64,000 bases of DNA from Byssothecium circinans (Eukaryota > Ascomycota > Dothideomycetes > Pleosporales > Massarinaceae): NCBI GenBank assembly GCA_010015675.1, contig ML977046.1:1-64000 (forward strand). Direction: 5' to 3'. The notes under the pieces were generated by a model. That model was not told the origin of the DNA and ran no database searches. It worked only from the letters and a program-made list of their open reading frames with translations. Below, one piece after another: positions 746-61,805 of the stretch. The first letter of the stretch is position 1. Each line of letters opens with the position of its first letter. Both the position numbers and the translations under genes were made by a program.

Positions 746-2830
746 TCAGTACTCATCGATCGTCAAAAGCTTTGATAGCAAAGGGTATTCACCTCTCCCA
801 AAAAGCGCCCTCTTACTCCAATCCATAGCCAGCAGACATCTTGTTCTAAAACTCACACTCTGCGCGAAATAAATGCTTCTCCAAATGTACACAGCCAACA
901 ACCCGCCACTAAGCCCATAGCCTCCGATATCGAAAATCGCCGCATTTCCAATATACGCCAAGCTGCCCATATGCCGGTACTCAAAGGCCTTGTACACTGC
1001 ATCGTCGATATCGCCGTAGTCCACCTCGTTAAGAATCATGCCCGGCGCCGCTTGCGCGATCTTGTTGAACTTGCGGCCCAGGTAAAGGCCTTGCTGATGC
1101 GCGCGTTGCGCTGTCGCGGGGAGGGAGGTTAGTTTGGTGTCGATTTGTAGCAGGAGCTCTCTAAGCTCGCCAAAATCGAGTGTACCGGATTTGTCGATGT
1201 CGTATTGGGCGAAGAGCTTGTCGAGGCGGCGGAGGTGGTCGGCTGCTTGGGGAAAGCGCTGTTTTACGCGTTTTGCGACGCCGCGCCAGTCGGCGTACGA
1301 GATCTGCAGGTCTTCCGGCTCTTTGCCTTTTTCCCACGCCGTGGTGCGGAGGAATTTTATTATGTTGTCCGAGACGTTGTTTTGCACAGTGGAGCAGTCG
1401 CCTATGGCGTAGACGTCGCCGAGGGGTGCGCCGCTGAGACGCAGATGTGTGTCGGTTTCTAGGGCGTGCTTGTTGTTTTGGCCTTCGAGTTTCGCGGCAA
1501 GTGTTTTGCTAAAGTCAGTTTGCGAGACGCCGGTTGACCAGAGGCAGAAGCCCATGGGAATTTCCTTGGTGATGAGTTTGCCGTTTTCGTCTTTTTGGGT
1601 GTATTGGATCTTGTCGGGGAATACCTCCTTGACGCGAGAGTTGGTTTGGACGTCGACTTGGTCATGAGCGAAGTGCTTCTCGGCGTATTCCGAAAGAGCT
1701 TGGTCGTATGTATTTAGAATGTGACTCCTGGACTGAATGACGTGCACAGAGATCTCGTTGCGGAGGATCCGGGGAAAGAACTTGCACATGTCCTCGTTGA
1801 GCATGTCGAAGAGCTCAGCAGCAAATTCGACGCCGGTAGGACCTCCACCAGAAACGACGAAAGAAAGCAGCCTCCTTCGCTCTTCGTCCGAAGTTGTCGG
1901 AAGACAAGCACTTTCCAGATTTCGTACGACAGCATTTCGGATCAAGCGTGCATCGCTGATATCCTTCAGAAAATGGCAGTTCTCAAGGCCTTTAACGCCA
2001 TGAGGGTTGGTTACAGAACCAACGCCCACCACAAGCTTGTCGTAGGGGACGTAAAAGTGCTGCTTCTCTCCATTAGTCCCCAATGCCGACACTTCGACCA
2101 GCTTTTCCGAGAACTCCACATCCTCGGCCATAGCTTTCAGAAAATGCCCATATACCCTTCTTACAATCCGTCTGACCGGCTCGACCAACGATCTTAATTC
2201 CAACGTCCCCACCGTGGCCGACGGCAGCATCGGCGTGAATAAGAAGTGATTCGACGGCGAAATAACCGTGACATGATAATCCCCCGGATTCAACTGCTTC
2301 AGCAGCGCCACGCTTCCCCATCCCGTACCCAATATGACCAGCTTTGGTTTGTGCTTGATCGCCCTGCTCTCAGGACAATCGTCGTCGTCGATGAAGTAGT
2401 CCACAATAGGCAGATTCTTCGGCCCACCTCTTCTTGGATTCAATGCCAGCTCTGACACAGGCACATCTGTCGTCTCTGGATCCTCCTTATACGTGCTCGC
2501 ATCGTAGACGAAGAAGGCGACTACGAGACCGGTGCTAACAGCCACAAAGACGCCCAGGCCAGCTGCCGCTCGGTATGCGAATCGGATAAAGTGTGATTTG
2601 GGTGCGGGAAGAGGCTTTGTCGACACGGTCCGTAGAATTGGGGATCTCTGGGCCAATCGCGGGGTTTGTACGGCGGCTGTTGGGAGCTGAGGGCGTTTCG
2701 CGAAGGCCGTGGGTCCGCCATTGCTGAAGTTGTGCGAGGAAAATGCATTAGGGAGCCTACGGCATGTATCCGGCACTCGAGGTGAATATTGCGACACACG
2801 CGACAGCGCTCCGGCGCGTCGGGGCAGCAT
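746..2830 (-). CDS. nde1: External alternative NADH:ubiquinone oxidoreductase with EF-hand, mitochondrial
   Basis: A single exon of 694 residues if read from the ATG at 2830. The open frame continues upstream only to a TTG, so I use the ATG. This is a type II NADH dehydrogenase: it oxidises NADH and reduces ubiquinone without pumping protons. The N-terminus is Arg/Ser-rich with few acidic residues, like a mitochondrial presequence, followed by a hydrophobic segment near residues 90-109. Two Rossmann motifs are visible, GTGWGS (about 168-173) and GGGPTG (about 328-333), plus the FAD-site AIGD near 475. A canonical EF-hand loop, DIDKSGTLDFGE, lies at about 544-555. The EF-hand insertion marks the calcium-dependent external (intermembrane-space-facing) class known from Neurospora NDE1. 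Family assignment is firm; orientation in the membrane is inferred from the class. Confidence 0.93.
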   Translation of the reverse strand: MLPRRAGALSRVSQYSPRVPDTCRRLPNAFSSHNFSNGGPTAFAKRPQLPTAAVQTPRLAQRSPILRTVSTKPLPAPKSHFIRFAYRAAAGLGVFVAVSTGLVVAFFVYDASTYKEDPETTDVPVSELALNPRRGGPKNLPIVDYFIDDDDCPESRAIKHKPKLVILGTGWGSVALLKQLNPGDYHVTVISPSNHFLFTPMLPSATVGTLELRSLVEPVRRIVRRVYGHFLKAMAEDVEFSEKLVEVSALGTNGEKQHFYVPYDKLVVGVGSVTNPHGVKGLENCHFLKDISDARLIRNAVVRNLESACLPTTSDEERRRLLSFVVSGGGPTGVEFAAELFDMLNEDMCKFFPRILRNEISVHVIQSRSHILNTYDQALSEYAEKHFAHDQVDVQTNSRVKEVFPDKIQYTQKDENGKLITKEIPMGFCLWSTGVSQTDFSKTLAAKLEGQNNKHALETDTHLRLSGAPLGDVYAIGDCSTVQNNVSDNIIKFLRTTAWEKGKEPEDLQISYADWRGVAKRVKQRFPQAADHLRRLDKLFAQYDIDKSGTLDFGELRELLLQIDTKLTSLPATAQRAHQQGLYLGRKFNKIAQAAPGMILNEVDYGDIDDAVYKAFEYRHMGSLAYIGNAAIFDIGGYGLSGGLLAVYIWRSIYFAQSVSFRTRCLLAMDWSKRALFGRGEYPLLSKLLTIDEY

Positions 2831-3362
2831 TTCGGGGGAGCTCCGGAGGTGCAAGCGGCGGAGGTATGATATGAAGTGCCGATGCCGGTGTACCTCATCA
2901 ATTGATTAGGAAGACGTGAATTTAGGCACGACAAACCATCTATGGCGGCCGAAACGAGTGTAGATGAGATGGCAAAGAATAAAGGTGGTTGTTGTGGTGT
3001 GAACAAAAGTGTTGATGTGGTGACGTCGATTGGCCGGGAAGCTTGGATGGCGCCGATCAGACCGGGCCAGGGAAAGATTTCAACACCACATGCACGGCTG
3101 CGACCCGCGTCACCATGATTATTGAGATGAAGGCCGCATAGTCCAATCTGGTTTAGTTATGGCGTCTATAAGTGGGCCTGGACCTGGACCTGGACCTCTA
3201 CTTTACAGAATACTTACAATATTTGCCGTAACGACTGCCAGTTAGTCTCCGGTGCTGGCATTTCGCAAACGAGGTCATTGACAGGTATGAAGCATTTTTA
3301 TTATGTATAATGATACACGCCCGTCTATATTCAAATGATGTACATGGTATCTACAAGCGGGC
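2831..3362. other. Intergenic region upstream of the NADH dehydrogenase
   Basis: This holds the promoter of the NADH dehydrogenase gene and the 3' flank of mdv1. Apart from a short hexamer repeat I see no gene or strong motif. Confidence 0.5.
3177..3197. repeat. CCTGGA hexamer microsatellite
   Basis: Three perfect copies of CCTGGA followed by a partial CCT, in non-coding DNA. Confidence 0.85.
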
Positions 3363-11704: not shown

Positions 11705-13383
11705 ATGGCTGCATCCACACGCCTTCATGGCCTCTTTGACGTCCAGTCAAGCACTCCAGTTGCCAGTCCACCTGTGGCTTATCAGAAAAAACCTACCCGC
11801 ATACGAGACCCGCCATCCATTATTGAACTCGATGACCTCACCTTTGGAAACCGCTACAGCCGCCCCAGCACATCTGTTCCCCAAACGCCTAATGAGCAGC
11901 GATCAGGTTTCATCACTCCAAAAACGCCACATGAAGTCGAATCCAGCTCTCCACCTACCCCAACACAGAACGAAGGGGTGGCGATTATGCAGAGCTGGAA
12001 CAATCCACCTATCAACAAGTGGAGGATTCTGTGCTGCTGCATGATTTATTTTGGCAATGGGCTGAATGACTCCGGTAGATATTTGAGATAAATTGGCAAC
12101 ATGATTACCGCTGACGTATTGGACAGTTGTCGGTGCACTGATTCCATACATGGAAGTCTATTATCACATTGGATACGCGATCGTGTCTATGATCTTCGTA
12201 GGAAATGCAGCTGGCTTCATCACAGCTGCTTTCTTCACGAACTCGACACTGGACAAACTAGGTCGTGCAAAGACGATGATTGCATCCGAGGTTTTGCTTA
12301 TCACCGCATATATAATGATCGTTGTGACCCCTCCCTACCCGGTCGTCGTTATTGCGTATGTTTAGTCACTTGCCCCTACTCCAGCTCACTCAACTAAAAA
12401 TTGTTTAGCTTTTTTCTCCTCGGCTACGGCTTTGCAACAAATCTTGCTCTCAACAACGTCTTCTGCGCCAATCTCCAACCATCCAGCGCCATTCTTGGGG
12501 CCGCTCATGGCAGTTACGGTGTCGGCGGCATCGTCGCGCCGATAATCGGTACAGTCATGGTCTCCAGCGGCATTCTCTGGTCCCGGTTTTTCATCATCAC
12601 GTTAGCCCTTCGGTTTTTCTGCATCGCTTTCGTCGTGTGTACTTTCTGGTCCTACAAAGAAGATGAACCAGCTACGCTCTTGTCAGCCTTGGAACGTACC
12701 GCGAGCCGACAAGCTGCCGCTGAAGATCGAGAATCAAAGCTCAAGAACTTACGCCAGGCACTCGTGAATCGAGTCACTATCTTTGGTGCGCTGTTCATAT
12801 TTGCGTATCAGGGTGCCGAGGTCTCGGTTTCTGGTTGGGTCATCTCCTTCCTGATCAACTATCGTGGAGGAGATCCAGCACATGTGGGTTACGTTACTGC
12901 TGGTTTCTGGGTAAGCTTTGGAACAATCCAACCCATTTTGAGATCCGATAGGTACTAATTTTACTAAAGGGAGGTATCACTCTAGGCCGCTTCGTTCTAA
13001 CTCATGCCGCCCCCAAAGTCGGCGAAAAGAACTTTGTAATAATTCTAACCATCGGTTCCGCACTCCTTCAACTCCTTGCCTGGCTCATCCCCAACGTCAT
13101 TGGAAATGCTGTTGCTGTCTCTGTGCTCGGTCTACTCCTCGGGCCGGTCTATCCATGTGCGCAAACGATCTTCACGCGCCTGATGCCTCGCCACGTACAG
13201 ACCACAGCGATTGGCTTCATTGCAGGAGCTGGGAGCTCAGGTGGTGCTGTTGCACCGTTTACCACGGGATTACTTGCTCAAGCTGCGGGGACTTGGGTAC
13301 TGCATCCTGTGTGTATTGGGTTGTATGTGGTTATGATGGCTTGTTGGGTTGGGTTGCCTAGGGTGAGGAAGAGGACGGAGTAG
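11705..13383 (+). CDS. Major facilitator superfamily transporter
   Basis: Exons are 11705-12074, 12127-12355, 12409-12910 and 12970-13383; 504 residues. About 105 hydrophilic N-terminal residues (Pro/Thr/Ser-rich, several TP sites) precede roughly twelve membrane helices. The first begins at KWRILCCCMIYFGNGLND, and LDKLGRAKTM is the A-like MFS loop between helices 2 and 3. The second half opens at GITLGRFVL, with GLLLGPVYPCAQTIFTRLMP and AGAGSSGGAVAPFTTGLLAQ towards the end. The overall pattern is like the fungal group related to yeast Bsc6 and bacterial FucP-like permeases, so a small sugar or organic solute is plausible, but the substrate cannot be read from sequence. The transporter is not next to biosynthetic genes. 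Confidence 0.87.
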
Positions 13384-38729: not shown

Positions 38730-41700
38730 CTACGTGAAATCATACACCGTCTCCGCATCTGCATCCCGATCCTTAACCACATACCTATCAACATCCACCC
38801 TGCCGTGCCCATGACCACCCCCAAATTTCCCATACCCTTGTCCATAGCTCGGCAAGTCCAGCTGGTACTCCATAGCCAACTTCACCGAATCGTGCGATGA
38901 GGTCGATGCATGCGTGTCGGAGGAGATGTTGCGTTGATGGGAGGGCATAAATTCTCCGGGTTGGAATTGCGGTTGCTCGTACGTTTCTATGGCCCGTTGG
39001 CTGGCTTGGGGTTGGGAGTGTGATTGGGTGGCGTGGCTTCGAAGGCTGGCGTTGTGATAATGTTGATGTTGGATTTGGTGCTGTTGGTTGTTTTGTTGCG
39101 GGTGTAGGTGTGGATTGTTTTGTGGCGGGAGTTGGTTGTTTTGTTGTTGGTGTTGTTGGTGAGTGTACGTAGCGTATGCCGCGCCTCCTACCACACCAGC
39201 CCCTACAACGACGACGCGCTCTTGATGCCCTTGATGCGAATCCTGTTCTGTGAGAGCGATGGCGGGCGGCGGAGTCGGCGGGTTCGCCCCTAGGGGATTC
39301 GGAAGAAGGTGGCGGGGGATTGGATTCTTCTGCAGGGGTTGTACTGCCGGTCCGGCTCGGAGGATGTCTGGTGGCGGCGCGTGCGTGGGTGCTTGTTGCT
39401 GCTGAGGCTTCGATAGAGGAGGGTTGTGGAGTTGTGGAGGAGAAGCACGGTGAAAAGGAGTTGGATTGTTCGAAAGAGCGGCAACGTGTGCAGGAGATGA
39501 CGCGTGCGCAGATAATGGTTGAGAAGGCGGCGGAGATTGCATGAAAATTGGGTGCACAGGAGCCTGAGAATGCGTGAGATCTGGGCCATGATGGGTAGGA
39601 GGCGCAGTGTGCAAATTCGAATTGCCATTCGCATTCGGGGGGGATGGCTGTTGCGAGGGAGCCGGCGCAGTGACGGGTTCCTTCAATGGAACGGCAGGAG
39701 CAGAGTACGCTCTATACATCGAGATTCGGTTCGGATTAGGCATGTACTTTTTCACTTCGGGCGCCAATGATGCTTGAGGATGTAGATGTGGTTGTTGCTG
39801 TGTAGGAGGCGTATTTGACACTGAATTACTCGGTGAGCGGCGCTTGCCAGGCCCACCGATGGTCAGACTGGAAGGAAGCGGAGCCGAGGGGTCGGGTTGT
39901 GTTGGCAGCTTTGGTGGCAGAGCGTCAGGCTGCGGTTGTAGCTGAGGTTGCGCTTGAGGTTGTATTTGGATCTGCAGTTGAGGCGGTTGTTGGTGTTTCT
40001 CGGCTGGCGGGCTGACCGGAGAGTCTTCGTACCTCTTGTGGGGTGCCGCATGGCTCGAAGACAGTGGTGGGCTTACTGCCATATGAGCTAGGTGATGGGC
40101 CTGATCTTTCATCAAACCAGCGCCATCTGCTTCAGCTGGAAGTTCTGCGATAAAGGTAGTGTAGATAGGATTCGAAGGTGCAGTGGTAGCCTGAGGGGTG
40201 CCCGCATCGAGTTCAAAAACGAAACTCGTTGCTGCAGTAAACTGTGTGTTTTTTGGGCCTATAGTAGCTGTAAGTTGACCGTTATTCGCGTGGGTTCTTG
40301 GTGGTAGTGGAGGAGCACACAGCTCCTCGGGTCGTGGTGGTAGTGGAGGGGTGTATTGGCCTTCGGCTCCTACGACTCTGAGTCCCTTTGCTGGTGCTGG
40401 ACCTGATTGATCACCAAGTGGTGGTGCTTGCTTGCTAGTAGTATGTAGAGGATGTGGATATGCATTATGCGACGAATGCATCTGAGATGGGTGATGACTG
40501 TTCCGTACGGGCTGCCTCGGTATACTTTGATTGGGGATGAACTGAGAAACTTCTTGTGGTGAATCTCTCCGTTTATGAGGCGGCGTCGATCCGAATGCAG
40601 GTAAGAGACCAGCCGGTGGCGATCCTTGTGGTGGATCTCGTGGCATAGCAGGAGCCGTTTCACCGTGAGCGAAAACAGGAATATTTCCTGAAGGTTGTCC
40701 GACCGCCATTGCTGGCAAAGACTTCTGCGGTCGTATGCCTTTAGGCTGGCCCGAGGTTGGGGATGGTGCATTGTGGACGACCTGCGGCTTCACGACCTGC
40801 GCCACATGCGCAACATTCTGCACGCCAACTATATGTGCCCGGTACGATGGATTTGCTCCAGGTTTCTGGGTCTCTCGCATATCCATGGATTTTGGCCTGG
40901 CATTTGCACCTATTTCCGGACTAACATCTCTACTAGCACTCGGAGTATTTGGTGCGCTGTTCGGTGTTCGATATCTCGATCGAATGTCTCTCTTTGCGCT
41001 CGATGGCTGGGGAGCACGTTGATGTTGCGGAGGCGCCACATTCTGCGAAGTTGGAGGATTTGCCGGACCTGCTGGTCGAGACTTTGATTTCCCTGGTAGT
41101 GGTGGGGTCAGGAAGTTGGACTGTCGGTCCATGGCAGTGTTGAGTGCAGGAGTCGACTTGTGAGAAGGGATTTGCGGTCGCGCCAGTGGTTGTGGTTGGG
41201 ACGAAGAAGCACCTCGACGACCTTGCGGTGGTGCAGGAGTAAGAGACATTGAAGGCGGTGGGTCCTTGCCGAGGAGGACGTTATAGCATAACCGCTGATC
41301 TTCTGGCGACAGTCTTGAGAAAAGTCCAGTCCCTAGGAACTTCTCTTGCACTTCTCGAACGTTCAGTTGCCCGCGAACAGCTCCAATCTCTTTCCCGTAA
41401 TTGCGACACAGAAACACAAGATCTTTCCTCGCATCCCAAACCACTTCTGAGGTTTTGCAAAAGTGTAGCGATGTTTTGACTAGGTAGAGCATATTAAGGC
41501 CTCTGAAATTGATCGCTTGTCCATCCTGATTCAGTCGTAGCATTACTTGACTGTTTCGTAAGACGTCGTTCGGTGGAGATCCGTGAGACCCTAATAACCA
41601 TCAGACATAGCACAAGATATAGGGGAAGAGGACTACGTACCTGGAGGAACCAAGTCTACCTCAACATCTACATTTTCCGTACAGCTAACATCCTTGTATT

Positions 41701-49814: not shown

Positions 49815-50415
49815 ATGATCACTCGGCCAGTATTCCCACGCACTTTTAAATTGCAGGTACCACATGCTGCAGCTCGACGAACCCTTTTCACCGGCTCCTC
49901 TACGCGCCTAAATGAGACCCGCGTCTTCGATAATATTCGCCAGCCCAGTGATCTGCATACACTCACGCTTCTCTCTGCAACAAACAACCGACCCTTGGTC
50001 ACCTTATGGAGCACTAGTTGGTGCTCGACCTGTCAAGCGGTGAAGCCGTTAGTGAAGGGATTGATCGAGGATGAACGCGTTGGGGAGGCAGAGGGGGGGT
50101 TGGCATTCGCGGAAGTTGAACTAGACAGTACTCTCATCGGCGACCTGGGGGTGCAGTACATGGTGCGCGCTTGTTTACTCTTTCACTTGGTTGGTAGTCA
50201 AAGAAAAGATACTAACAGGGCTTATTTAGATCACATCAATGCCAACATTGCTCGCCTTCAGCAGACAGGAAGCGCAGTTTGATACCAAACTTGTCAAGCC
50301 TGATCTCATGAAGAATAAGGATTATCTGAGAGAGTGGCTGTTGAACGAGGCGAGAAGAGGAGGTCGAGTTGGTGGTGGCGGTGGAAGTCTTCTGGGAGGT
50401 TTGTTTGGTCGTTGA
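49815..50415 (+). CDS. Thioredoxin-like protein, probably mitochondrial
   Basis: Exons are 49815-50162 and 50230-50415; 177 residues. The splice joins VQYM to ITSMPTLLAF, giving the thioredoxin cis-proline loop. The active site is WCSTC (Cys70, Cys73), an unusual dipeptide between the cysteines compared with the CGPC of classical thioredoxin. The first 30 residues are Arg-rich with no acidic residues, like a mitochondrial presequence. The tail is a Gly-rich GGGGGSLLGGLFGR. Fungal relatives are annotated as thioredoxin-like, role unknown. It is convergent with the giant gene, stops 109 bp apart. Confidence 0.88.
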
Positions 50416-50524: not shown

Positions 50525-53500
50525 TTATAACAAGAAAGCCACCTTCGCACCAAGATCCGGTACATCGTTCAAAAAGTCGAGTCCTCCATCGCCGTCATCA
50601 CACCAATCAACCATCTCAACATCCTCGCTCTCATAATCCCATTCATTAGCATCTTCGAATGCTCTGTGTTGCTCCTGGCTGCCAGGACCCCTGTCATCGT
50701 CTTTGAATTGCCATGGACGCTCCTTGCTAATAGTAAAATCAACATTATTCCCATGATCGTAGGGGACCTCTGTTGGTGAAAGTGATGCCAGTCTCGCATC
50801 ATCTTCCCCATGAAAGATATCGTGTACCCATTGAGCTAGAGTACTTTGTCCCTCCTGCCTTACTGTTGCTATGAATCGTCTGTCCAATGGCACGCCATCG
50901 ACTTTCGTCTCGACGGTAAGCTCCCAACAGAAGAGCCAAGCTACAAGTGTCCTCCAGTCCAGAACACCACCTACTGCAAGCTGAATTAAGCCAAGGAATT
51001 CACTGTACATCTTTTTCTTTAGAGAGTGACCTGTATCTTCTGCCAGTCTGCCGACGTTGGGTTGAGGTGTTAAGCCTAGTGCAAGGATCCAGGCATTCAT
51101 GATGGTATGAAGTCCACAGGTCCAATCTCCAGCTTGCGCGAGAACCGTGACTTCACGTGGGTCTTTCGAAAATTTTACTTGTGTATCGCCCTCGTCGTTT
51201 CTGTGCTTGGCCCAGCTCGTGTTGCGTGCGAGTTGTTGGGTTTGGTTCAATAAAGTCGTCCTATGCAGATGCCTGAGATGGTGCGGAGCACTGTCAAGGA
51301 AGTAAACACGGAACTCTGTACCTTCTTCACACTTTTCCTCTTGTAGTACCGTGAGGAAGGTGTGTATACGACCTTTGTTGTCAAAAACCCGGGGCAAAAG
51401 CCAGCATCTTCTGGGCCTCGAGGCGATGATGTCCATACCCGAATCCGAGGAATTACGGGATGCAAGTGCCATTTGGAGGGCGATGTCCTTTGCGAGCGTA
51501 AACCCGCCCGCAAATGGTGAGTCACTTCGAGCCTTCTTGTAGGTTTCGTGCTGGAGCTGATCGATGGCCTGTACCACCGAGGCTATGCCCTCCACCACAC
51601 GGTCCTGATCCCAATGTTCTCCACTCTTTACCCATTGGTCTCCCTTACTCAACTGTAGTTGCTTTTGATTATTGAAGAGATGATTCAACCTTTTCACCAT
51701 CCCGGAGGCGAATATACACGGATGTTCGTTGCTTCTTGCGTCATTCTCCGGCCGTTCCCACTGAATGTGTTGTTGAAAGCTTCTCAATAATGCCCGCCGC
51801 GAGTCCTCTGACTGTTTTTCCATAGTCTCGTCGATCTTTGAGATGAAATCATCGTATTCGGCCTTGACAGTATTGCTACTGTCGTCGAAGTCGTGTAAAG
51901 TAGAATCAATCTGTGATTTGATTTCGCCCCTGTCAGCATTCAAGTCGAGTCTCCCCAAACTGGCGAGTAAAGGAGCATCTTTAGTCCTCGTATTGAAATC
52001 CCAGTCATCACTCGCACGCTTCTCGTTATGAAAGAAACCGCTTTCTCTGAGGGTAAGTCTGTTTTGGTCTGAGGCGAATGGCGTCAAACCAGTGGGCGGG
52101 GTGAACTGCTCCATATCCTTCAATACGGCGATTTCGTCTTCCAAGTCGACTTCATTCATGAGTCTTTGGGTGGATGTAAACCTCCTTGACATATCAACAT
52201 CCTGTCCGCGTCCAACAAATCCGTAACATCGCAGGAAAGCAGTTATCATATCGAGATCCGCAGCACCGACACGAGCCAGGTGAATGACATCCAAGGCGTC
52301 CCGGAAAAGTTGGCTTGATCGAACGGTCCAATTTTCTCGAAAGTCCATATTCGGTTCTAGGCCAAGAGCAAGAGCCCAGCCGTTGAAGATAACATGATAT
52401 CCGCAAGTCCAGTTTGTACTTTGCATGGCACATGGGATCCACTTAGCAGCAGATGGTATCGGCGGGTTTGTCGAGTCAGGATTATTCAATTTCGTGATCA
52501 ATCGAATGGCTATCTGGTACAGCGTCTGACGGTGTTCTCGTGTGTAATGGTATGATCGCGAATCCACGATGGAGATGGTTGGTACTTTTTGGTCATCATA
52601 TTGGATGACTATAAGTACAGCGTGATTGAAATAAACGATTGGCACGAGAAGAGGACGGCCGTTGCCGGAGACGCCGTTAAGAAGATGAGACGACTCGTCT
52701 GTCCAATCAGCACAAGCCTGGACTGCAGTCATCGTAACGTGACTGAAGCCCTCACGTCCATTTCCATTTTTGGTGATGGCTAGTGTTAGTGATGCAATGG
52801 CTAGCACGATTTCATCGAGTCGGAGGTACAGCGTTTGCTCCATAGAGACTTCGAGTGGTGGTGCCCTGATCGTCTTTAAGTCCTTCGCCACTTTCTGATC
52901 TTGCAATTTAGAGTCGATTGCCTGTCTGAGCTTTTGGCATGGCTCATTTCTTAAAGAGTGTGAAAGGTCAACTTTGGAGCTTTTTGCGGAGTCATTGTCG
53001 TCGCCTTTGTCGCCACTGCCTGAGGGTCCCTTGCCCTCGAACGTCCATTTCCCGTTGTTGAAATGCACATTGTTCGATCGAAAATAGGGAAATACCTTGG
53101 TAGACACGTTTTCAAGCAGCTCCGATTCTCGTTCGCGTATTATCGTGAGTCTGTCCTCTAGCGTTGCACTGCCTGATTGCCTGAACGTGGTTGAGAATCG
53201 TCGGTCGGCCGGCACTTCCCCCACCATCTTTTCTTGAACGAGGTCATGACAATTCAACCACGCGAACAGTGACCTCCAATCCAACACTCCCGCGATGGCT
53301 AGTCTGAGAACTTCTGCCAATTCTAGGTAGGCCTGAGCACTCATCGGGGTTTTTGAAGGTGTGAGACCTAACGCGAGGATCCAAGCGTTCATAAGAGCAT
53401 TCCAACCGGACTGCCAAACTCCTTTTGCTTCCTTCGGCACTTGTACTATGTACGGTTCCATACAGTAGTCGGGAGCTGTGTTGCTCGAACCTCGGAGGCG

Positions 53501-56500
53501 ATGCTGGGACCATCCCAATGACGAAACAATCTTCTTGGTCTGTTCAAAGAGAACATTGCGGTGTTTCTTGAGATGCTTTGGCCTGCTATCGAGGAAATAG
53601 ACAGAAAATTCTGCCTTACCATCTTTCAACTCCTCTTGCACAACTACGAGAAAGATATGTGGGTGTTCATTGCCACCGAAGGCTCTAGGCATGAGCCAGC
53701 ACCTCCCAGGTCTCGAGGAAATACCGCGTGTCTCCACTTTACCATTTTCAACAGCGCGAGCTGTTGCAAGCGTAAAGCCTCGAGCAAAAAGACGGTCTGG
53801 GTCTCCGTTATCAGCTACTTGGAGCTGATCAATGGCCTCGAGAACTGATGCAACGCCAGCCATCAACCTTTCCATAGACAAGTCAGTGCCCGCATGAACT
53901 TTTACGTAAGGCTCGACATGTTTTTGCATCAGGAGGGCTTTGTACTTTTCGTAGGAGCGGTTCCAGAAATTGCAGGAGGATTGGTTGATTTCATTCTCGA
54001 GCCGCTTGTCCTGAGATTTGTCATGCAATTGCATATAACCTTGATACTTTTGTATCATCGCTTCCGGGTCGCTCTCCCAGGATTCCCCGATTGTCGCCAA
54101 AAATCCCTTATAGAATTTGTGGGCTCCAGTCTCATCAGGGATGTTACATTTTCTTATGCTGGTAACAAAGCGTGTGTTGCCGAAATTGACGTTGTTGGTG
54201 TGATCATACGGTCGTTCAGATCTGGGTAATGTACCCAGAGGGATCTCAAACTGATCGTAAATGTTCTCCAACCTAGTCGCCATTGCAATATCCCCAGCGT
54301 CCTGAGACCCTTTTTGTCTTAGTGACGATTCGAACCGGCGATTTTCTGGCACATTATCCATAGTTCTTTCTGCAGTGACCTGATTGCAGAAGAACCATGC
54401 GACCAGGGTCTTCCAGTCCAAGGCACCAGCTATTGCTAGCTGCAAGATGGACATGAACGAGCCAAAGCGGCTAGATAAATCGAAGTTTCGGTTAGGAGTC
54501 AAGCCCATTGCAAGGATCCAGGCGTTCAAGATGGTATGGTAGCCGCACCTCCATCCATTGTCTTGTTGCGCCACACTTACTATACGTAGATCTTCGGTGA
54601 AAGTTACATCTCCATCAATACCTCCGTTACGATGGGTTGACCATCCAAGATCGGCAGCTGCCTTTCGTATTCGCTGGAAAAGAGCGGACGGGACGTCTTG
54701 TAAATAAGTCTCCAAGCTATCGAGGATAGAGGCGGTAAACACTGTTTGTTCGTCCTCGGTAACCTCTTCCTGTACCACTGCTAGGAAGATGTGGGTTCTT
54801 CCGTCACCTTTGGTTTTCTGCCCAGCAATATCATCCTCCGTCTCGTCCCCTCCTCGCAGTCCTCGCAACACACCTCGCCCGACCGTTATAGGCATAAGCC
54901 AGCATCGCCGTGGTCTTGATACAACCGCGTTTTCTGGAAGTGACGTACTCCTGCTTATACCCATCGCAATGTTATAAGATGATGCGAGTGCAAAACCACC
55001 GGCGAAAACTTCCGAATCCAGGTGGGAATTCGCTTGATGTGTGTCAATTGCTTCAATGACTGATGCTATTCCAAGTGTTACATTCCAATCATCAACGTAT
55101 TCCTCTTCTGGTGGAAATTGGAAAGGTGGAGAAAATGTTGTCTTCTTCGCTAAATCGTCGTAAACCTTCATCCTTTGTGCCAAGAAGTCACAAGGCCTGT
55201 TGTCAATGTACATCTGGTCAGACTCTTTCTTCGCAGCGTCTTTTACACCTAGAACTTCATGAACGCCCTTTGTCACCTCTAGTAAGTCAGGATTTATAGG
55301 ATTGCCATTGGCCCCTTCATTGCCTTCCACCTCGTCGAGAGGTTGATCCCGAGCTTTCCATGCGGCTTCAATTTCCTCTACAGTGGAATCTGGATCGAGT
55401 CGTCCTAAGCGAGCAAGCTCTAAAGCCTGATCTTTGACGGCTTGCTCTTCCCAATCATCACTTTTGAACGCGGAATTGTGTCGCTGGCCTTGACCCTCGA
55501 ATCGAATTCTCGTAGCTTCCAAATCGATGGTGGTCTGTGGGTTTTGGCGCCAAAATTCGTTCTCGTCGCTGAAGCTTCTCTGGAGTACGTGCCCTCGGTC
55601 TCTGTCTGTGGAAAACTTCTGAGTTTTGTCGAGCTTTCTCTTGGGGTCTGCGGGTGATAGAACAAAGCGGTAACACTCGAGGAATTTGGCGAGAAATTTG
55701 CTGTTCGCTTCACCTTGTTGAGTGATGTATATTGCTTGTACGAGGTCCTGGAAGAATTGACCTTCTAAATCCCAGCTTTGGAAAAACTTAGTGTTGACTG
55801 TGAGACCAAATGCTTTTGCCCAGGCATTCATTATGACATGGTATCCGCTTGTCCAACCCTCGCTTTGTATCGCACATGGATACCACGTAGCGTAAGGCGG
55901 TACCGCATCGTCTGTTGAGGAGGAATGTACGTGTTGCCACCACTTAGCCTTCTTATATAGACTGACTGCTGCTTGGTAGACTTTTTGACGCTCTGCTGGA
56001 GTCTGGCTGTACGGCCTTGAGTCCATGACGGAGATTGTCGGATCGTTGCTCTCGTTGTACTGGATTACAATGAGCACCATATGATTCTTGCTATCATTCT
56101 TGATCTCGTACGGTACAATCAAAGGCCTTCCGGGGCGGAGAACAGACGCAAATGTCTCCCTTTTTGCTATCCAGCGTCTGAAGGCTTCCGGTAGGAGCAC
56201 ACCATATCCTCTGGGTTTCTCCTCATTTTCAGAGATAGACAGAGTCACCGTTGTAATGATCCTCAAGAGATCCGCTGCTGGCAGGCCTGAACCGTGCTTG
56301 GCTTTTTGGTTGATTTGTGCTCGTTGGTCCTCCGTCTGGTTTTTCCTAAACTTCCTTATGCGATCGTGAACGTATTTGCAGGCCTCTTTTCGCAGTTCTT
56401 CTGCCTTTACCGCTCCCATTTTTGCCTCTCTCTCTTTGGCCTCTCTTGCTTTTCTGGGCTTTTCCTCTTCAGTCGTTGCCTTAGCTCTTTCATTCATGAG

Positions 56501-59500
56501 CACAGCGAGTTCGTCAACATGCAGCTTCGAGATACGAGTTCCCGTCCCCGCATAATGCTGTACCAATCTGGGTAGTGACTCTGAGTCAATCTGTTCGTCA
56601 GACCAAGTGTCGGTTGGAAAAAGCGTTCTGTGCTTCATGCCTCCCTCAACAGGAATTGACCGAATGATTTCGTTTGTCCGTGGGGTATTATTCCCAGGCA
56701 ACCGGGCAAGTTTCTCGATATCTCTGTCCAGCTGACTCTCACTTAAGACCAAGTCAAAGCGATTACCACGCCGGACTTGGATCTCATCGCTTATAAATGC
56801 TTGACTATCATCGGGGTTACGATTGTCAACAAACCCCATGCAGGCTAGAAAAGACCATATTAATCTCCAGTCAGCATAGCCCTTACTGACTGCGCGAATT
56901 ACTTTCCGGCATGACCTGAAGGTCTTGTGTTTTGACTTGAAGAAAGGATTGACTGGTAGCCCTAGTGCAATCGCCCATGCAGTCATAATAGTGTAGTATC
57001 CTGTCTGCCATGGCATTGCGGCTTCCACTTTTGTGATCCAATTTGCTTGCAGGTCGGGTTTGAAATTGCCATCTAAGTAATCAAGTTGGCCCTTATTGCA
57101 CAGCATGCCCTTTACATCGTTGTATACTTCGCAGCGTAGTTTGGGTCTCGAGAGCCAGGGCGCTGAATCAAAGACAGCTATTGAAACACGGCTGGTGTCT
57201 GGTGACTGAACGACGACAAGAAAACTGTGGCCATTAACCGTATAAGGCAGCAGCATTGGTTGAGCACCAAACAATGCAACATCTCTCTTGCTGGCGGCCA
57301 GAGATTTTAGGGTGTCGAATGTCATAACTCCGAAGCATTCTTGCGGTTCTTGTTTGTGGTCGACAGCTTGGATGACGGCGGCGACGCTCCTGAAAATGGT
57401 TTTCTCATCGAGTTCCTGACTTGCAGATGTGTCTTTCCCCATTAGCTTTTTCATTTTTGGTTGTTCAAGCGTGTCTCGGAGGTAGGCGCAGGCCGGGTTG
57501 ATAACCTGAGATTTCGTCTTTTGACTCCCATCTTCATTTTCCGAGTCACTAGTATCCGAGACTCGTATCACGGATGAACTATCCGACTCTTCCCCACTCG
57601 GCTCTCCTTCGTTCGACCATCTATCATTTTCTCGCCTCAGCTCTCCAGTAAACAGTACCATTGTCCCGTTATCAAGCTTCTCCGGCGCTAAGGCATTGCC
57701 CCTTCTCCCCTTCCAAGCCTGCATTAATATGTTTTCTCTTTCTTCAAACTTTCTCGCTTCCGCAGCGGTAGCTTGGAACCTTCTGTCATCTTCAGGTACA
57801 TCCACGCCGATCGCCACGATGTTCCAGCACTTCAAGAAAGCGAATATCAGTTTCCAGTCTAAAGCGAGGTTGATGGCGAAGAGATTGGCGATTACATCAA
57901 ATTGTTCCCTAAAATACTCCTCATTCTCGGTGGCCAACTTGAACCCAGGGTTCAGCGCTAGACCCAATGCCAATGCCCAAGCGGAAAGAACCATAAGCCG
58001 GAAGCTAATCTCGATATCGTCGTGGCGAGGCACTCCGGCGACCCAGAGGGAGTGGTCCCCGTCCGGGAATTTTCCGAAATCTGCATCGATCTTGTTTAGC
58101 CAGTCGTGAGCTTCCACGAAGTTCTTTGCTTTCTTGCGCACCGAGCGTCGTTGTCTTTTCTTGGAGTCGGCTGTGGGGTGTATGATGTGCAGGCTAATCT
58201 CCCTTTTCTTTGATAGCTGTATGATGGCAAGGTGTGTGTCCTCAGCAGGGAGCAAAACTGGACGGCCGGGTAGGAACAATCTATCACCCAATGGCGTAGC
58301 AAAGCCAGCCATGTTGGGGTTATTTTCTTTGTTCAGATTGTGATTGTTGATAGCTCTTGGGACGAGTTGGACGAGGAATGTTATAAAGCCTGAAGCTTGG
58401 ATGCGGTCCTCATAAGCTTCCTTATTTGACATGACTATTGGCCTGAGCTTTGCAAGACGTAGGCGCAAGTATCTAGAAAATATATCAGCAAAAGAAATCG
58501 TAGAAGTTGATAGTGTCAAAACTTACAGGCAAAAGTCGGAAGTCTTTTCCAATACAGTAGTACGGTCAATAAACCCGTCACCCTGTGCCAGCTGTTCTAA
58601 CTGTTGCCGTGCTGCTTCCTGCTTCTCTTTCTTCTTCTTATCTGCTTCAGCTTTCGCCCTCACAGCCTCCTCTTTCTTCTCCTTCTTCTGATTAGCTGCC
58701 TGTATCTCCTTCTTTCTTGCTTCATCTACCGTATTCTTCTCAGCCGCCTCTTCTGCTTTCTTCCTCCTCTCTCTCTCTTCTTTTGCAAGTTTCTGATCAA
58801 TCTTTTCTTTTTGGCCTGCTTCATACTCTGTAAGTCTCTTATCAATGGCCTCTTTCCTCCCCACTTCATACTCCTTTATCCTTGTTTGAGCGTCTCTTTC
58901 AAATTTCTTTTGCAACTGTCCCCTAATTTCTGCCTCAGACTTTCCTGCAAAGACTTTCTTCACGGTCTCTGGGTCGAAGGCTTCAATTGGCTGCTGCTGC
59001 TCAGTACCAACGGGTCCCCTATCCGTCGACCATATAGTTGAAATGTTTTCCGTGTTCTGAGAATTATGCCGTGCTTTTCTCTCAACATCGTCAAGAACAA
59101 AGGTGCGCTCGTCCAAGCTCCTTGTGAGCTCAGTAGTGCCACCTTGCCAAAAGAAAATAGGCTGTGAGAGGAGCTCGATCGTGGCGAAGGAGGGCAAGGG
59201 GCCGATGAACAGCTCGTCCGTATCACCAACATTGCGGAACGTAGAGGCGTTGACAGTGACAGATGTATGAACTGGAACGACGACGAAATAGCGTAAGCCT
59301 GCGTCGTCGGCTCCTTGGATAGGACGAAGGTCTATACTGGCAGCTTCAGATTCTTCATTGGATTTGCCACGATTCCGCGCGTTGGTGCTAAATCGCAACT
59401 GTTAGCTTTGGCGACTTGCCTTGATCTACCAGAGTGACTAAATACTTACACTTTAAACGTATGATTGCCCATCACGGAGAAAGGGCGAGGGACACCATTA

Positions 59501-60042
59501 GATGCCACGACAGCACACTCCACTTCAGCCACTCCCTCCACGAACTCATCCCCATCTTGCGCAAATGCTCTTACAAAATGATGATACGCAAAGTCCCCCA
59601 AGTCTCTGTTTGACTCTCTCTCAATGCGTCCAAATAATTCTCGAAAAGCATCTGAGGCGCCGATGCTATCTAAATCATTGGAAGGCTTTGGATTCTTTCG
59701 CGTTACTCGCGCACCCGTATTGAGTACTTTAGGCCGCCCAGGTGGAACCACTGGCGACCGAATAATTGCTGTTTCGAGGGATGCAGTCTGCAAATTGTGA
59801 AGCTCTCCCCATGGACGGTTAAAGAGGGCTTGAGTGAAGCTATCGACTGTGGAGGGTACTCCAGCACTGCCACGAGAGGGTTGGGCGGGAAAGACCCATT
59901 GGATATCCAGTCTATCTTCAACTGGGATTCCGCCGTCACTTGGGGATTCGGAAACTGTGCTTTTTGTCTTTGGCTTCTTCGGGTCCTTGCCTCCTCCTTG
60001 TTTCGTCGCTTTGCGTTTGGTTCCAGCCTTCTTTGGCGGCAT
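50525..60042 (-). CDS. Giant protein with seven tandem Ulp1-like (C48/CE-clan) peptidase domains
   Basis: Exons are 60042-59450, 59387-58527 and 58472-50525; 3133 residues, phases agree (branch GCTAAC 14 nt before the second exon). The start is a basic nuclear-type tail (MPPKKAGTKRKATKQ). Residues about 300-480 are a charged coiled coil. Seven domains follow. Each has an Ile/Ala helix (IASV..AID), a strand with His, a strand with Asp, then Q.....C-G in a (W)-x-C-G-(Y/L)-H-x-I-(M/L)-N-A-W-x-L-A-x-G-L helix, then D-W-R-x-L. Three keep all four residues: domain 4 (His1712, Asp1736, Gln1788, Cys1794), 6 (His2435, Asp2455, Gln2502, Cys2508) and 7 (His2855, Asp2878, Gln2931, Cys2937). Gln-6-Cys spacing equals that of Ulp1. 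The others have Ser641, Thr975, Ser1360 and Ser2173 at the Cys position. A SUMO/ubiquitin-like protease role is inference. Confidence 0.8.
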
Positions 60043-60840: not shown

Positions 60841-61805
60841 TCATCCCCTTTGCGAGCTTGTGTATCTATCCATCGCATTGAACACTCCTGAGTGACGGTT
60901 CATCTCGTAGCTCTGACCTGGCACACGATAACACATTGGATTAATGAATCCAGAACCGAAGTCTGACCTCATTGTTCGTATAATAGTCGCAGCGTCCTCA
61001 CACGATGATGTGGTCGCGATGTATTGACTTGCAGGCTCGGTCACGTATTGCGCTTCGGTGGAGTATGACCAAGCTCTGTTATTGAATGATGATTGATCGT
61101 ACATCGTGTATTGTTGGTACTCTTCGCTCTTGATCTCAGGTGTGGGTGGCATCGGCGAGTTGTAATATGGCGAGCCTTGACACCCAGGCGGTGTGTCCAT
61201 GCTTGACACAATCGAGTGAGGGCTCGGAGGGTCGTTAGTTGCGAGCGGAGCATTCGAGCGTGGCGCTGGGATAACGAGTGGGGGCACTGACGGCAAGTGC
61301 GAAGCATTCAGCCCAGCGAGCGACGAGTGTCGACTAGATGGTGAGTTAGTACACAATAGCCCATCGCACGCGATTCTACGATCGAGCATCGCACTGAGTG
61401 ATGGTGCTGCAGATATGTGATCGTATGAACGGTCACTCGCACCGCCCATGGCAGCAACGATTTCGTTATCGGACACTCCTCGTTCGTGTAAGATGGACCG
61501 TAGCTTTCTGTTCTCGTCGAGGACTCTGCGAGCGGCATTTTGGATCTCGGCGGAGGCTTCGATGCCCATTTGTTCGCAGTTGCGTAGCTTTGTTTCCAAC
61601 TCGTTGAGATACTCTTTCCTTCGTGCTCGCGATCTTCCTAGGTAGACGTTAGCCTAACTCAGCCTGAAGAAATGGCAAAGGTTTCTGAGCATGACTCACG
61701 CTGGTTGTCTCGAATCCGAGCTAAGTTCTGTGTTTTCTGAACCACCAGTCAGACGCTTGTCTCCGATAATACGAGAGATTGTGCGCTTGCCTTGGAATCA
61801 CTCAT
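60841..61805 (-). CDS. bZIP transcription factor
   Basis: Exons are 61805-61791 (15 nt), 61736-61700 (37 nt) and 61637-60841; 282 residues. The first intron begins GCAAGC, a GC-AG intron, and ends TTCAG. It connects MSDSK to KTQNLARIRDN, and the second splice completes the basic region DNQRRSRARRKEYLNELE. All three lengths sum to a multiple of three. The leucine zipper follows (LNELE..L....GIEASAEIQNAARRVLDENRKLR). The rest is Ser/Pro-rich with a cysteine pair (CDGLLCTNSPSS) and is likely an activation region. Several fungal bZIPs with this short MSD start control stress or secondary metabolism. The target is unknown. Confidence 0.82.

Follow-up and report, generated by a model that had tools for sequence, protein, structure and literature searches.

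A giant gene of Byssothecium circinans encodes seven tandem Ulp1-like units, four of them without the active-site cysteine

We analyzed the first 64,000 nucleotides of contig ML977046.1 of the fungus Byssothecium circinans (Pleosporales, Massarinaceae), hereafter the window, in which a giant gene encodes a protein with seven tandem Ulp1-like units (R1 to R7; Table 1). Three of these units, R4, R6 and R7, have His, Asp, Gln and Cys in the C48 (Ulp1/SENP) order together with a Gln-x5-Cys-Gly motif. The active-site cysteine is missing from the other four, and we therefore rejected the idea of seven active peptidases. The first-pass annotation, made from the letters of the DNA alone, had placed a catalytic His-Asp-Gln-Cys set in each unit; this holds for R4, R6 and R7 and fails for R1, R2, R3 and R5, which, as far as sequence can tell, are pseudoenzyme-like units and not peptidases. 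Which residue of R1 falls at the Cys position varies with the alignment.

The gene model proposed at first pass, with two introns and a 3133-residue product, agrees with our reconstruction in coordinates, strand and splicing. Both introns (62 and 54 nt) follow the GT-AG rule on the minus strand, the stop codon is a TAA at 50525, and the spliced product is identical at every residue to P0001, the deposited B. circinans protein. Removal of intron 2 creates the junction C-L-Y-L-R, which matches a C-x-Y-L-[RHK] motif located ahead of a unit in the homologues P0004 (C-G-Y-L-R), P0002 (C-Q-Y-L-H) and P0006 (C-A-Y-L-K). The recurrence of the motif in these three proteins supports the intron-2 splice at the sequence level.

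Next, we compared the units with one another. Their pairwise identity was 17-42%, and unit-against-unit blastp (database of seven sequences) gave E-values from 5.6e-61 (R5/R7) to 0.17, the weakest of the best matches, for R4 searched against R1; the reverse search, R1 against R4, gave 5e-7. When the four unit classes described below were compared profile against profile, the E-values were 1e-29 to 1.2e-58. Both analyses thus bear out the earlier proposal that one unit is repeated seven times. A profile made from the seven units recovered all of them at 220-290 bits, as expected by construction.

A search with the third-exon protein, restricted to the 7990 candidates with the most words in common and to lengths of about 1470-4660 aa, returned 30 proteins including the Byssothecium product, which is 24-36% identical to the other 29. 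Database names of these proteins are hypothetical or 'ubiquitin-like protease family'. An organism name was attached to 22 of the 30 and absent from eight; all nine taxa that we looked up belong to the Pleosporales, and the other named organisms are presumably Pleosporales as well. Every protein has three to seven units, 128 in total. The repeat number in relatives, which the first-pass annotation had proposed to check, is therefore mostly lower than in B. circinans, with a similar layout. In a FastTree phylogeny, a quick method that left several long branches flagged, the units fell into four groups, for which we coined the names U1 (30 rows, support 95), U2 (30, 91), U3 (31, 97) and U4 (37, 100). 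The window array reads U1-U2-U3-U4-U4-U3-U4, with the first, second, third and fifth units lacking the cysteine.

The distribution of the cysteine among these classes was strongly uneven: it is kept in 0/30 U1, 1/30 U2, 28/31 U3 and 30/37 U4 units, or 58/68 for U3 and U4 together and 1/60 for U1 and U2. The U2 units disarmed at Cys often retain the other residues (Asp is kept in 29/30 U2 units, His in 25/30 and Gln in 17/30). On a tree computed without the Cys column, the state of the nucleophile changed at least eight times. The order U1-U2-U3-U4 was found in 21 of the 30 proteins, 18 of which lack Cys exactly at U1 and U2, with P0012, P0013 and P0027 departing from this pattern. U3-U4 forms the C-terminal end in all proteins except P0006, which ends in two U4 units, the last one disarmed. 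A sole U4 keeps its Cys in 24 of 25 proteins, and in the five proteins that have two or three U4 units 6 of the 12 do; two of the three extra U3/U4 copies of the window lineage (R3, R4 and R5) lack it. The same polarity thus runs through the 30 proteins, the C-terminal pair being mostly armed and the upstream units mostly disarmed. The last unit was conserved in 22/22 rows of a smaller alignment, which omits eight homologues including four that depart there (P0006, P0027, P0028 and P0030), and in 24/30 on the fuller count.

Free-standing single units seem rare: a single-unit search, which requires shared 5-residue words, gave four proteins of 302-451 aa. Only two known members came back from a profile search built on 24 full-length homologues, and we draw no conclusion on taxonomic range from it.

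We then considered membership in the C48 family. The third-exon frame reached PF02902 with 34.6 bits (cut-off, 20.7), residues 2330-3133 did so with 27.8 bits, and the sole PDB sequence match of the profile was a Ulp1-like SUMO protease. Fold models were obtained for two units, R6 and R7; both adopt a Ulp1/SENP (C48-type) fold, with SUMO proteases as the best structural matches (Chaetomium Ulp1-like 6dg4, SENP2 and SENP5, at 10-18% identity). A fold unrelated to the CE clan, which the first-pass annotation had named as the finding that would overturn its proposal, is thus contradicted for these two units. Matches to thymidylate synthase (NCBIfam, E 0.81), a MOSC domain and a ceramidase C-terminus were below cut-off and set aside. 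The genome contains three other CE-type protease loci (L001-L004), each with His-Trp and D-C-G motifs; by eye, one looks Ulp1-like, one NEDD8-protease-like and one Ulp2-like. A genome scan with PF02902 recovered these other CE-type loci and missed the giant gene, so it is insensitive here.

On this evidence we favour, with moderate confidence, one gene for a large, probably nuclear protein that acts as a multivalent protease on a ubiquitin-like modifier, most likely SUMO. The weakly FHA-like domain near the N-terminus and the charged stretch behind it would position the protein or bring about its oligomerisation. The units without Cys may still bind the modifier or each other without cutting, and the C-terminal U3-U4 pair would cut an isopeptide bond or a chain. 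The extra copies R3, R4 and R5 would add mainly disarmed units. Of the two earlier suggestions, a multivalent SUMO-like deconjugase or a scaffold, the former is preferred, with the catalytic set confined to three units.

Several results weigh against this reading. None of the seven units, when cut out singly, reached the PF02902 cut-off (best, 13.7 against 20.7 bits), and R7 alone gave nothing significant against PDB sequences (top, ribosomal protein mS22, E 0.47). The class profiles matched none of the genome's own Ulp loci at a significant E-value: U2 was best with 5.9 bits (E 0.51; best shuffle, 4.5 bits), and U1, U3 and U4 did not score above shuffles. The Trp directly after the catalytic His forms part of the Gly-Gly tunnel, without being a formal family definition. 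It is absent from 126 of the 128 array units, and the two that have it are neither U3 nor U4. The array may therefore recognise Gly-Gly differently and may act on a substrate other than SUMO. Asp451 of Ulp1 is required for a SUMO salt bridge. In an alignment covering 24 of the 30 proteins, U3 carries a W-L-x-D motif ahead of the first helix (W in 16/24, L in 18/24 and D in 14/24 rows), which the A-W-L-N-D of L001 resembles. The same position of U4 holds W in 1/24 and D in 12/24 rows, and R6 of the window reads Y-L-R-L-D-E, where Y and L stand in place of the W and D of the motif. Since the missing Trp and the partial motif leave a mixed picture, SUMO is a first guess and not a finding.

Could the protein be a scaffold only, its units serving mainly as protein-binding modules and the leftover catalytic residues reflecting fold constraint or occasional activity? 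The nucleophile is absent from four of the seven units, none of the seven has Trp behind His, and the sequences resemble known Ulp enzymes only weakly. However, the cysteine of U4 is kept in 24/25 single-U4 proteins, that of U3 in 28/31 units, and it is absent from 59/60 U1 and U2 units; fold constraint alone hardly explains retention in one pair of classes only, and we think this explanation unlikely. We judge it just as unlikely that the array cleaves ubiquitin, NEDD8 or some protein that is not a modifier, or that the units are CE-clan acyltransferases as in the YopJ group. The missing Trp leaves room for such a substrate, but the best folds, the PDB sequence match and the U3 motif all point to SUMO proteases.

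We also considered whether the gene is decaying, belongs to a mobile element or is an annotation join of separate genes. Fast divergence and the four disarmed units would fit decay. On the other hand, the 8-kb third exon is free of stops, similar arrays occur across many genera of Pleosporales, and the intron-2 junction motif is shared with three homologues. The own-genome search returned the giant gene alone, on two overlapping contigs, and among 15 pattern matches in viral contigs no relative was confirmed. Separate genes were rejected on the identity of the deposited model and the fusion of the units in homologues. Altogether, these explanations appear very improbable.

Outside the units, the first-pass annotation had described a basic N-terminus and a coiled coil; the basic residues are present, and the coiled coil is only possible, as suggested by composition. 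Residues 174-280 weakly resemble FHA domains (KIF1A CC1-FHA and Mek1), with Z under the tool's reliability level and no Foldseek row at E <= 0.001. In the family consensus lines, a P-C-x-Y-[LF]-R element precedes U2 and U3, and a G-x-x-H-x3-F-x-x-D element trails U1, U2 and U3, both outside the units. Given this conservation in linkers, what is repeated extends beyond the protease fold. Between the R3-R4 and R6-R7 linkers, identity is 37% over a stretch of 49 residues (E 9e-5), consistent with a duplicated U3-linker-U4 block.

Table 1. The giant gene and the regions of its product (positions in the window; NLS, nuclear localization signal).
Feature	Class	Residues	Positions	Strand	Remarks
Whole gene		3133 aa	50525..60042	-	exons 60042..59450, 59387..58527, 58472..50525
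Basic, putative NLS-like N-terminus		1-30	59953..60042	-	12 Lys/Arg in residues 1-45
Conserved beta domain, weakly FHA-like		174-280	59141..59523	-	
Highly charged, possibly helical/coiled-coil		340-470	58571..58963	-	from composition of residues 330-480
R1	U1	514-716	57779..58387	-	predicted inactive; His kept; lacks Asp, Gln, Cys
R2	U2	842-1037	56816..57403	-	predicted inactive; His and Asp; T975 at Cys position; lacks Gln
R3	U3	1219-1424	55655..56272	-	H1282, D1302, Q1354; S1360 at Cys position
R4	U4	1614-1865	54332..55087	-	complete set H1712, D1736, Q1788, C1794
R5	U4	2019-2244	53195..53872	-	predicted inactive; His and Asp; S2173 at Cys position; lacks Gln
R6	U3	2371-2583	52178..52816	-	complete set H2435, D2455, Q2502, C2508; fold model
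R7	U4	2775-3018	50873..51604	-	complete set H2855, D2878, Q2931, C2937; fold model

The window sits in a stretch present twice in the assembly, at the right end of one contig (C46:246383-352766) and the left end of another (C70:1-106384). The two agree in every piece compared, namely the gene (translated match) and DNA pieces of 3.7, 5, 5 and 10 kb, the last extending to the final base of C46. The stretch therefore looks like unmerged contig ends, and gene counts here may be doubled. A thioredoxin-like gene (49860-50352, +) and the giant gene are arranged tail to tail; the label comes from PF00085 of a relative, its own open frame having no Pfam match. A relative of this gene (73-78% identity) is fused to the C-terminus of P0006, the deposited Massariosphaeria homologue. 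Judging by this fusion, which may be an annotation join, the two genes seem to be adjacent in that fungus as well, with the orientation changed. The region at 11774-13167 (+), some 37 kb away from the giant gene, matches the major-facilitator part at the C-terminus of P0025, a deposited homologue from Kalmusia (53-71% identity); this could be old synteny or merely a common family. A stop-to-stop frame of 956 codons (38733-41600, -) and the upstream neighbour (60844-61653, -), which by eye has the look of a bZIP regulator, had no Pfam match at E 0.001.

To our knowledge, known Ulp/SENP proteins have one catalytic domain each. Unlike them, the fungal array has three to seven tandem units including disarmed copies, a weakly FHA-like N-terminal region and, in all but two units, no Trp after His. 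The first-pass annotation had held such a multi-domain array to be undescribed, and literature searches aimed at Ulp1-like unit arrays in one chain, covering few subscription papers, found no description; the gene name of one homologue led to no paper either. Minichromosomes of Colletotrichum carry additional Ulp1 genes, including a tandem pair (PMC10779208); there, 'tandem' denotes adjoining paralogous genes, in contrast to several units per chain in Byssothecium. A comparative genomics study lists, among families contracted in psychrophilic fungi, an orthogroup under the name 'Ubiquitin-like protease family profile domain' (PMC11412873), which may or may not correspond to the array family.

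With the C580S change, the catalytic domain of yeast Ulp1 binds SUMO tightly, the Kd for SUMO1 being 12.8 nM in preliminary analyses (PMC3216068). By sequence, R3 has the same Cys-to-Ser change as this laboratory trap, Ulp1(3) C580S, with His, Asp and Gln retained; it differs in being natural and in one chain with armed units. A more speculative possibility, which we hold as doubtful, is that the protein is a natural substrate-trap machine. Cys-to-Ser/Ala units would grip a modifier chain link by link, leaving the cutting to the U3-U4 pair at the C-terminus, the number and order of units (three to seven by species) setting the chain length or density recognised.

The sequences are already public, and the arrangement seems undescribed. 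The array family offers a natural experiment in pseudoprotease evolution, with disarmed copies as possible binding sites, and the question is approachable unit by unit. In addition, the natural Cys-to-Ser units may serve as ready-made affinity reagents for the modifier that they bind.
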